Shown in pieces: positions 59,002 through 61,612 of a stretch of DNA of 64,000 nucleotides. Under the pieces are notes generated by a model that did not search any database, was not told the DNA's origin, and was given only the letters and a program-made list of their open reading frames with translations. Made by a program: the position numbers and the translations under genes. How positions within the stretch are numbered: position 1 is the first letter of the stretch; each line of letters starts with the position of its first letter. This stretch comes from Alicyclobacillus sacchari (GTDB taxonomy: Bacteria; Bacillota; Bacilli; Alicyclobacillales; Alicyclobacillaceae), in assembly GCF_004366795.1 (NCBI RefSeq), contig NZ_SORF01000007.1:1-64000 (forward strand). Direction: 5' to 3'.

Positions 59002-59598
59002 TTGGCAAAACTGTATTACCGATTTGGGCAGATGAATGCCAGCAAATCAATTCAATTGTTGACCGTTGCCCACAGTTACGAGGAACAGGGGAAGCGAGTC
59101 ACATTGTTCACGCCTGCTTTGGATGATCGCTATGGGCGAGGCGTGATTGCTTCGCGTGTCGGCATTGCGAAGCAGGCCATCGTCGTTGACGATGACACGA
59201 ATCTGTACGAAGTTGTACAGTGCGATCCCCCCGATTGTGTTCTCGTGGATGAAGTACAATTTTTGCGTGCCTACCACGTTCGCCAACTAGCACGCATCGC
59301 GGACGATCTCGATATTCCCGTGATTGCGTACGGCCTCTTGAAAGACTATCGCAATCAGCTATTTGAAGGTAGCGAGGCGGCCATTTTATGGGCGGATCGC
59401 ATCGAGGAAATCAAGACCATATGTGCGAATCCTGGATGTGACCGCAAGGCGACGATGATTTTAAAGTTTAAAGACGGCAAACCGGTGTACGCTGGGGAAC
59501 AAATCGAAGTCGGGGGCAATGATTTGTACAAGTCTGTATGCCGCAAACATTATTTCCATCCAGACATCGATGGGCTGATGCGGGCCCCTGACTTATAA
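59002..59598 (+). CDS. tdk: Thymidine kinase
   Basis: Phosphorylates thymidine to dTMP in the salvage pathway. The 198-residue protein is of type II (cellular/bacterial TK1) form: P-loop GQMNASKSIQLL, where Ser replaces the usual Gly before Lys, lasso/base motifs CVLVDEVQFLRAYHV and YGLLKDYRNQLF, zinc ligands in ICANPGCDRK and VCRKHY, and the IEVGGNDLY loop. It most resembles the enterobacterial TK in length and order. TTG 59002 is preceded by AAGGGGATC. It converges on the DUF4406 gene and the two are separated by 25 bases. Confidence 0.94.
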   Translation: MAKLYYRFGQMNASKSIQLLTVAHSYEEQGKRVTLFTPALDDRYGRGVIASRVGIAKQAIVVDDDTNLYEVVQCDPPDCVLVDEVQFLRAYHVRQLARIADDLDIPVIAYGLLKDYRNQLFEGSEAAILWADRIEEIKTICANPGCDRKATMILKFKDGKPVYAGEQIEVGGNDLYKSVCRKHYFHPDIDGLMRAPDL

Positions 59599-59623: not shown

Positions 59624-59977
59624 CTAGACATCCAGCGCCAGTTGGCGCACGCCAACATCCTCAATGGTATGTGCACAAAGGCGTACAAACGTCGATATTG
59701 AATAGACTGGCATCTCGAGTTGGCTCGCCACATACACTTCAAGCCGTGCACCGCGCGAATGTTCCCAACCAGGCAACGTAACGACACAGTCGGCATCCAT
59801 GAGCAGACGAATGTCTTTGCGCATTGCGCTCGTCCATGCTTCGTCGACACCACACAATTCGGCAGGATTCATAACCTCGTGCCCGTACTTGCGCAGTTTC
59901 GTGGCGGCCTCGAAAAACGCTGGACGGTTCAAGTCAGGCAACCCTGTCATGGGTCCAGATAGATACACTCGTTTCAT
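59624..59977 (-). CDS. DUF4406 protein, nucleoside 2-deoxyribosyltransferase-like
   Basis: A 117-residue protein of the DUF4406 family, with the nucleoside 2-deoxyribosyltransferase fold: KRVYLSGPMTGLPDLNRPAF at the N-terminus, GHEVMNPAE, MRKDIRLLMDADCVVTLPGWE and SRGARLEVYVASQL with the conserved catalytic-type Glu. Relatives are common in phages and near nucleotide metabolism genes. ATG 59977 follows GGAGG at nine bases. Its promoter is a strong sigma-A promoter with a LexA box in the spacer, so it is likely SOS-induced. It lies next to tdk, converging. The enzymatic role is inferred from the fold. Confidence 0.85.
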   Translation of the reverse strand: MKRVYLSGPMTGLPDLNRPAFFEAATKLRKYGHEVMNPAELCGVDEAWTSAMRKDIRLLMDADCVVTLPGWEHSRGARLEVYVASQLEMPVYSISTFVRLCAHTIEDVGVRQLALDV

Positions 59978-60010: not shown

Positions 60011-60039
60011 ACTATACAGAACATATGTTCGTGTGTCAA
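60011..60039 (-). promoter_or_regulatory. SOS (LexA) box inside a sigma-A promoter
   Basis: On the minus strand TTGACA (60039-60034) and TATAGT (60016-60011) are spaced exactly 17 bp. The spacer contains GAACATATGTTC at 60019-60030, a perfect palindrome that fits the core of the Gram-positive LexA/DinR box GAACNNNNGTTC, including purine-pyrimidine choices. A start near 60004 would give a 27-base leader to ATG 59977. Confidence 0.82.
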
Positions 60040-60054
60040 ACTGCCGACTCCCTC

Positions 60055-60082
60055 TTGACCTTAAAGCTGTAACCGCTATAAT
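60055..60082 (+). promoter_or_regulatory. Promoter of the FAD oxidoreductase gene
   Basis: TTGACC at 60055-60060 and TATAAT at 60077-60082 are spaced 16 bp, about 105 bases before ATG 60188. The SOS box lies 25 bases upstream, so LexA might weakly affect this promoter too. Confidence 0.65.
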
Positions 60083-60187
60083 GACGAAGGTTGTTCATCC
60101 GAACGATGCACAACGTTTGAACATTAATGTTCGGGATGCTATGGTTCATCACTGCGGATGGTCAGTCTCCGAACAGGAGGGGTTTGG

Positions 60188-61612
60188 ATGGCGGATAACT
60201 ATGATGTGATTATCGTCGGTGCTGGGCCTGCGGGTATTTACGCCGCGTATGAACTGGCGGAGAAAGCTCCGCAAGCACGGGTGCTGATGATCGATAAAGG
60301 CGTCGAAGCGAAGTACAGGCATTGTCCAATTATGGAGGGGCGCATCGACAAATGCCCACCAGCGAACAAAATCAAGACATATGCAAGTTGTTGGCCGGCG
60401 TGTGGAGTCATCAACGGTGCGGGGGGCGCGGGTAGCTTCAGCGACGGGAAGTTTAACATTACGGCCGAATTTGGCGGGTATCTCACAGAATATCTGCCGT
60501 CGTCCGAAGTTCTGTCGCTGATCGAATACGTGGATGCCATCAATTTGAAGCACGGTGCGCCAGATGTCATCACAGATCCGTCGACGCCGGCCGTTGCCGC
60601 CATCGAGCGGCGTGCGATGGCGGCGGGGCTTAAATTGCTGCGGGCGCGAGTGCGCCATATTGGTACAGACATGAATCTCGAGTTGATGAACGCCATTTTT
60701 CATCACCTCGCACAGCGCATAGATCTTCGCTTCCGGACGTTTGTGGACGATTTGCTTGTCGAAGAGGAGCGAATTGCGGGGGTCGTCCTCCGTGGCGGCG
60801 AAGAAGTCCGTGCCAGATTCGTCCTGCTCGCGCCAGGACGCGATGGGGCGACCTGGTTGTCCGATTTGTTCCGGCGACACAAATTGCGTATGACAAACAA
60901 TCAGGTGGACATCGGTGTTCGTGTCGAGACGAGCAACGTTGTGATGCAAGAGATTAACGATCATCTCTATGAAGGGAAATTCCTTTACCAATCGCCGGCG
61001 ACGGGGCTAATGGTGCGCACGTTCTGCAGCAACCCGTCTGGTCACGTCGTCGTCGAAAATCACACCGGTGTGATGGCTGCAAACGGTCACGCGTACCATG
61101 ATCCGGCGCTCGGGTCCCGCAATACGAACTTTGCACTCCTGGTCAGCCATCGCTTTACAGAACCGTTTGACCGACCGAATGAATTTGCGAAAAGCATCTG
61201 TCATCAAGCGAACGAACTATCCAACGGTTCCATTATCGTTCAGAAGTATGGCGATATTCGCAAAGGGCGCCGCAGTACAGAACAGCGCATTCGGGAAGGT
61301 TTCGTCGAACCAACTCTGAAGGAAGCGGTACCGGGCGATCTCGGCCTTGTTCTGCCGTACAAGACGATGCTGGCATTGCAAGAGATGATTGAGGCTCTCG
61401 ATCAGGTGACGCCGGGTATTGCGAGCGATCACACCTTGTTCTACGGGGTGGAGGCGAAGTTTTACGCCGCGCGGGCGGATGTTGGCAAGGACCTGCAGAC
61501 GCGCATCGATGGACTGTACTGCGCCGGAGATGGGCCGGGTATTTCAAGGGGCATTTCGCAGGCGGCGAGCAGCGGTGTGCACGTCGCGAGGCAGTTGCTC
61601 GGGCGGCTGTGA
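60188..61612 (+). CDS. FAD-dependent oxidoreductase, unknown substrate
   Basis: A 474-residue flavoprotein. The N-terminal FAD motif is YDVIIVGAGPAGIYAAYELA; the cysteine-containing ASCWPACGVINGAGGAGSFSDG segment is followed by substrate domain and the C-terminal YCAGDGPGISRGISQAASSG motif. It resembles the family of NAD(P)/FAD-dependent oxidoreductases related to YhiN/FixC-like dehydrogenases with the GxGAGxxSDGKF motif. ATG 60188 is preceded by GGAGGGG. It has its own promoter and a hairpin overlapping its stop codon. Specific function is not visible. Confidence 0.85.
   Translation: MADNYDVIIVGAGPAGIYAAYELAEKAPQARVLMIDKGVEAKYRHCPIMEGRIDKCPPANKIKTYASCWPACGVINGAGGAGSFSDGKFNITAEFGGYLTEYLPSSEVLSLIEYVDAINLKHGAPDVITDPSTPAVAAIERRAMAAGLKLLRARVRHIGTDMNLELMNAIFHHLAQRIDLRFRTFVDDLLVEEERIAGVVLRGGEEVRARFVLLAPGRDGATWLSDLFRRHKLRMTNNQVDIGVRVETSNVVMQEINDHLYEGKFLYQSPATGLMVRTFCSNPSGHVVVENHTGVMAANGHAYHDPALGSRNTNFALLVSHRFTEPFDRPNEFAKSICHQANELSNGSIIVQKYGDIRKGRRSTEQRIREGFVEPTLKEAVPGDLGLVLPYKTMLALQEMIEALDQVTPGIASDHTLFYGVEAKFYAARADVGKDLQTRIDGLYCAGDGPGISRGISQAASSGVHVARQLLGRL

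Follow-up and report, generated by a model that had tools for sequence, protein, structure and literature searches.

We analysed the first 64,000 nucleotides of contig NZ_SORF01000007.1 of Alicyclobacillus sacchari (hereafter the window), in which a short minus-strand gene encodes a protein of the DUF4406 family. The promoter of this gene encloses a palindrome of the LexA/SOS type, and the encoded protein ends in a hexapeptide that resembles the motif used to bind DnaN, the sliding clamp. Coordinates of the individual features are given in Table 1.

Promoter and SOS box of the DUF4406 gene

Positions 60039–60011 of the minus strand read TTGACACACGAACATATGTTCTGTATAGT. Reading of the sequence confirms the initial annotation in that this segment is a TTGACA-N17-TATAGT promoter enclosing GAACATATGTTC. 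The promoter is sigma-A-like: it agrees with the consensus at 11 of 12 bases, its spacer is 17 bases long, and a GGAGGT lies upstream of the DUF4406 ATG. The box had been placed 27 bases from the leader start; no defined point fits this value, and the distance from box to ATG is 41 bases. In the 2.95-Mb genome the exact 12-mer is found three times, versus once for a reversed-pattern control. Its three places are in the DUF4406 promoter, at the start of a radical S-adenosylmethionine (SAM) gene and upstream of a 188-aa open reading frame (ORF). No Rfam family matches at its gathering score between 59500 and 60400.

The genome encodes one RecA and one LexA above the family cut-off, together with two weaker LexA-like matches (C18 and C20). 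Both LexA and RecA are present in all members of our genus set, which comprises 15 Alicyclobacillus-group genomes including that of the window strain. The motif CGAAC-N4-GTTTG lies upstream of lexA in 15/15 and of recA in 15/15 of these genomes, and uvrB of the window strain is preceded by two boxes, GAACGCACGTTC and CGAACGTATGTTTG. The Bacillus subtilis LexA consensus is given as CGAACATATGTTCG (PMC8270828), and the DUF4406 box matches it at 13 of 14 positions. This arrangement resembles the LexA (DinR) SOS regulon of Bacillales, with its CGAAC-N4-GTTCG type of box within the promoter, here found at lexA, recA and uvrB.

A search for the box upstream of lexA, recA and uvrB had been chosen beforehand as the check on whether it is this species' LexA site, and the outcome supports that assignment. 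The proposed direct SOS control of a chromosomal DUF4406 copy is also supported by these boxes and the position of the DUF4406 box, which is conserved throughout the genus set (see below). Judged from sequence, the DUF4406 gene is very likely repressed by LexA and induced by damage, and the inclusion of this chromosomal gene, fixed in the genus, in the LexA regulon appears well supported.

Two other sites in the genome deserve mention. At L079 (G000:C4:49626-49637), GAACGTATGTTC precedes by 14 bases a 407-aa ORF that weakly matches Y-family polymerases (IMS, E 1.6e-5) and is probably an SOS polymerase or an ImuB-like protein. At L085 (G000:C17:19589-19600), GAACAAGTGTTC is followed after 5 bases by an ORF for an IS1595-type transposase, and LexA control of an insertion sequence is possible there.

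Conservation of the box and the locus

Of the 61 genomes searched, 25 contain DUF4406 relatives, among them every genome of the genus set, and the best DUF4406 match of each genus genome was taken as the orthologue. Just upstream, all 15 orthologues have a TTGAC[A/T] promoter that agrees with the consensus at 10 or 11 of 12 bases and carries GAAC-N4-GTTC within its 17-nt spacer; the sequence outside promoter and box has diverged. Since the box is placed between the promoter hexamers and is kept there in each orthologue despite diverged flanks, it stands above chance. No box of this kind lies in the 200 bp before any of 72 non-orthologous DUF4406 loci; these are the best 80 of 131 loci minus eight genus orthologues, and four of the 72 are named Alicyclobacillus. 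The eight genus loci (L129-L136) overlap genomes already in the count and were not counted again. In a tree of 102 DUF4406 rows with too few columns, the genus orthologues need two label changes, which is compatible with one origin or with more than one.

The exact box was also seen at two non-orthologous copies. At L042 it overlaps the coding frame, the matched part of which is without the N-terminus, and at L045 it lies far from the DUF4406 gene.

The gene next to DUF4406 is tdk, as initially annotated, and a flavin adenine dinucleotide (FAD)-dependent oxidoreductase gene diverges on the other side. The order tdk / DUF4406 / FAD-oxidoreductase is found in 13/15 of the 3.3-kb loci, and the two others (G004 and G001) are alike in wider stretches. 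The FAD-oxidoreductase gene has a promoter-like site of its own, TTGACC-N16-TATAAT (60055-60082). In G001, this gene is about 1.5 kb away from the DUF4406 gene and yet the box stays with DUF4406, indicating that the box follows DUF4406; we therefore rejected the box as an operator of the divergent gene. A second perfect palindrome, GAACATTAATGTTC (60119-60132), with a spacing of 6 instead of 4, is located in the FAD-oxidoreductase leader. In the 350 bp before DUF4406 it is seen in the window strain and in none of the 14 relatives, and we therefore treat it as incidental.

Table 1. Coordinates of features at the DUF4406 locus
Feature	Position in window	Strand	Basis
tdk, thymidine kinase, convergent neighbour	59002..59598	+	Pfam TK, E 9.2e-39
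DUF4406 gene, 117 aa	59624..59977 (59977-59624, stop included)	-	PF14359, E 9.7e-28
Codons for C-terminal hexapeptide QLALDV, clamp-binding-motif-like tail	59627..59644	-	
-10 hexamer TATAGT of DUF4406 promoter	60011..60016	-	
LexA/SOS box GAACATATGTTC (CGAACATATGTTCT with one flanking base per side), within promoter spacer	60019..60030	-	
-35 hexamer TTGACA of DUF4406 promoter	60034..60039	-	direct reading; TTGAC[A/T] with 17-nt spacer in 15/15 genus orthologues
FAD-dependent oxidoreductase, divergent neighbour	60188..61612	+	start at second in-frame ATG of ORF 60158-61612

The DUF4406 protein and its C-terminal tail

The protein scores 96.9 bits against DUF4406 (PF14359; gathering cut-off 22). 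Its score against the nucleoside deoxyribosyltransferase (NDT) family PF05014, 21.7 bits, is below the gathering cut-off of 28.8, and searches found no match in NCBIfam and none in PADLOC at E 0.001. PHROG 355 (nucleoside 2-deoxyribosyltransferase) does match. The closest named relatives by this protein are Alicyclobacillus tengchongensis (86%) and A. hesperidum (85%).

The predicted structure has a mean predicted local distance difference test (pLDDT) score of 85. The model displays an NDT-like fold, as had been suggested from the sequence, and it matches NDT, DNPH1 and MilB in the PDB. Candidate triad residues Y5, D55 and E80, matched to the DNPH1 triad by order and spacing, are invariant in the 15 orthologues. 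On the basis of the modelled fold and these residues, a role in the nucleotide pool is plausible. Among 15 non-orthologous DUF4406 copies (L033-L047), 12 have Ala in the column of the catalytic Asp, which suggests that many such copies are inactive or work differently.

The initial annotation missed the clamp-like tail, and it is this part of the finding that is more unusual. The pattern QL[SAL]L[DEGN][LIV] is present in 15/15 genus orthologues, at the exact end of the protein in 14 and eight residues before the end in L027, and is preceded by a linker that varies in both sequence and length. It is absent from the 15 other DUF4406 copies examined, namely those with loci among 25 non-orthologous rows, drawn from genus, family and order genomes. 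Two of the 72 non-orthologous loci (L180 and L205) contain matches to the pattern away from the C-terminus.

The beta-clamp-binding motif is described as Q-phi-x-[L/M]-x-[F/L], with I tolerated (PMC11139829), and reported examples are QLVLGL of Pol IV (PMC5731819) and QLSLPL of Hda (PMC12309361). All 15 orthologues have Q at position 1, an aliphatic residue at 2 and L or M at 4, and the sixth residue is L in 11, I in three and V in the window copy. Residues 110-117 of the model, of which the last six form the tail, have pLDDT values below 50, as would be expected for a disordered docking peptide. We have moderate confidence, from these sequence features, that the tail binds the protein to DnaN. 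The tail resembles the Pol IV and Hda hexapeptides in that QLxLx(hydrophobic) occurs in a poorly ordered region at the terminus; it differs from them in the V at position six of the window copy and in its carrier, an NDT-fold protein instead of a polymerase or Hda.

A second gene with box and tail

The radical-SAM gene with the exact 12-mer (L001, G000:C1:425900-426883) encodes 325 residues ending in QLTLPI. The protein matches the Rv2578c and PA0069 families below cut-off. Across the genus set, 15/15 copies of this gene are preceded by GAACATA[TC]GTTC (the exact 12-mer in 13) and encode a C-terminal Q[LM]xLP[IL], and neither the box within 260 bp nor the tail was found for 15 distant radical-SAM paralogues, one per genome. 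Around this box we recognised no promoter of similar clarity to the DUF4406 one. Because the first ATG of the ORF falls within the box in the window strain, the gene may in fact start at a more downstream position. The third exact 12-mer (L003, G000:C37:4277-4288) lies near a contig end, 5 bases before the 188-aa ORF, for which there is no Pfam or NCBIfam match.

Two genome-wide searches with C-terminal patterns gave ten matches (seven and three), and the only credible genes among them are DUF4406 and radical-SAM. The patterns allow Phe at positions 2 and 4 and miss Phe ends, Leu ends encoded by TTA or TTG and all pentapeptides. One match, L243, lies in a 153-codon frame that has its first start codon only after 69 codons, and we do not consider it a gene. 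That both tail genes are among the three 12-mer genes has a chance of ~7e-7, assuming 2900 genes and for a comparison made post hoc.

Discussion

The box, the promoter geometry, their conservation, the matching boxes of lexA, recA and uvrB and the tail are direct readings of the sequence. Taken together, we think it probable that the DUF4406 protein is an NDT-fold N-hydrolase of deoxynucleotides that is induced by SOS and tethered to the clamp. LexA bound to the spacer box would block RNA polymerase at the DUF4406 promoter; DNA damage, acting via RecA, would remove LexA and allow this strong promoter to fire. The product would be an N-glycosidase of the NDT fold in which the Y/D/E set is intact. 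It would most likely act as a 2'-deoxynucleoside 5'-phosphate N-hydrolase, as DNPH1 and DmtZ do, and may clear away deoxynucleotides that are damaged or unwanted. By docking on DnaN, the disordered C-terminal QLxLx[LIV] tail would bring the enzyme to sites of replication and repair. The data hint at a damage-induced nucleotide-processing enzyme at the replication fork, and we attach low to moderate confidence to N-hydrolysis of deoxynucleotides there.

Three observations qualify this interpretation. The V at position 6 of the window copy falls outside the published clamp motif, which is why we term this tail motif-like and do not count it as a member of the motif. The C-terminal patterns are not enriched, with 7 and 3 matches as against 22 and 32 for the reversed-pattern controls, and we argue only from which two credible genes they identify. 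Finally, the loose form of the box, GAACNNNNGTTC, is no commoner genome-wide than its control (55 versus 62; our survey of these sites covers 50 of the 55 places), and we rejected such counting as a test for LexA sites. The motif alone hence proves nothing, and position and conservation carry the argument; the chance of one such site per 150-bp stretch is ~0.003.

Among other explanations, the one that survives best accepts SOS control and has the hexapeptide pack on its own protein or serve oligomerisation, with the enzyme acting, as DNPH1 or a salvage NDT does, on free nucleotides or nucleosides in the pool. We regard it as unlikely, even if it fits the NDT fold, the tdk gene that stays near DUF4406 across the genus and the terminal V of the window copy. 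A similar tail is found on the box-sharing radical-SAM protein, which belongs to another family, and is missing in the box-less distant paralogues; moreover, the very low model confidence at the tail is that of a disordered end.

Somewhat less likely still is an SOS-controlled, clamp-bound brake, which would occupy the clamp or hydrolyse normal deoxynucleoside monophosphates (dNMPs) to slow synthesis during repair, and would not sanitise damaged nucleotides. The strong promoter with its box and the tail of all 15 orthologues suit such a brake, and DmtZ, a phage member of the NDT family, is reported to hydrolyse the normal nucleotide dAMP (PMC12884076). However, a pure clamp blocker has no need of the Y/D/E set, which is kept in 15/15 orthologues, and a hydrolase of normal nucleotides would presumably need no tethering.

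Binding of the box by another repressor, e.g., a phage-type LexA-like protein, is very improbable: C18 and C20 would be candidates, but they score below the family cut-off, nine of the 15 genus genomes have a single LexA match and yet all 15 have the box, and the box is common to lexA, recA and uvrB. A chance palindrome, to which the unremarkable frequency of the loose motif might point, is contradicted by its conservation inside the spacer between diverged flanks in 15/15 orthologues and can be practically dismissed.

The tethered, SOS-induced N-hydrolase that we favour has several partial counterparts. Human DNPH1 (RCL), a nucleotide-pool sanitiser, shares the NDT-like fold, the small size and Y/D/E in the same order, but is only ~20% identical to the DUF4406 protein in structural alignments. 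To our knowledge, neither SOS-type control nor a clamp tail is known for DNPH1. DmtZ and phage NDT-like proteins are similar in that this phage family is described as acting on dNMPs (PMC12884076) and in the PHROG 355 match found here; the present gene differs from them in being a fixed chromosomal copy with an SOS box and a C-terminal tail. For the second box-plus-tail gene, with its below-cut-off Rv2578c and PA0069 matches, SplB-like radical-SAM proteins offer a parallel. They have already been tied to SOS (PMC3765255), which makes the radical-SAM half of the finding less new; the text of that paper contains neither 'sliding clamp' nor 'deoxyribosyltransferase'.

The SOS box, the clamp motif and the NDT fold are each of known kinds; their combination was not met in the literature searched. 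Nor was a DUF4406 gene met there as an SOS member, the published B. subtilis SOS list lying outside that search. Searches linking the SOS regulon and LexA with deoxyribosyltransferase, or joining hexapeptide, sliding clamp and QLxLxL, found nothing, and those joining deoxyribosyltransferase and sliding clamp returned phage genome papers only. Among the matches listed for Alicyclobacillus LexA/SOS, none concerned a DUF4406 gene by title or abstract start, and QLSLNL appeared in none of those listed for clamp-binding motifs.

A wider scenario, which we put forward tentatively and hold to be less probable than the tethered hydrolase as such, is that a phage-type deoxynucleotide N-hydrolase was domesticated into the SOS response and hooked to the clamp, where it may clean or limit deoxynucleotides at the damaged fork, and that the SOS regulon of this genus tags unrelated enzymes (DUF4406 and radical-SAM) with clamp-docking tails. 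If the favoured interpretation is true, bacteria would sanitise or limit nucleotides as part of the SOS response and in physical coupling with the replisome; we did not meet this link in the literature searched. DUF4406, a phage-associated family whose function is unassigned in Pfam, would gain a testable role and a genetic handle. The pairing of a LexA box with a clamp tail further suggests a simple rule for finding other replisome-tethered damage-response proteins.
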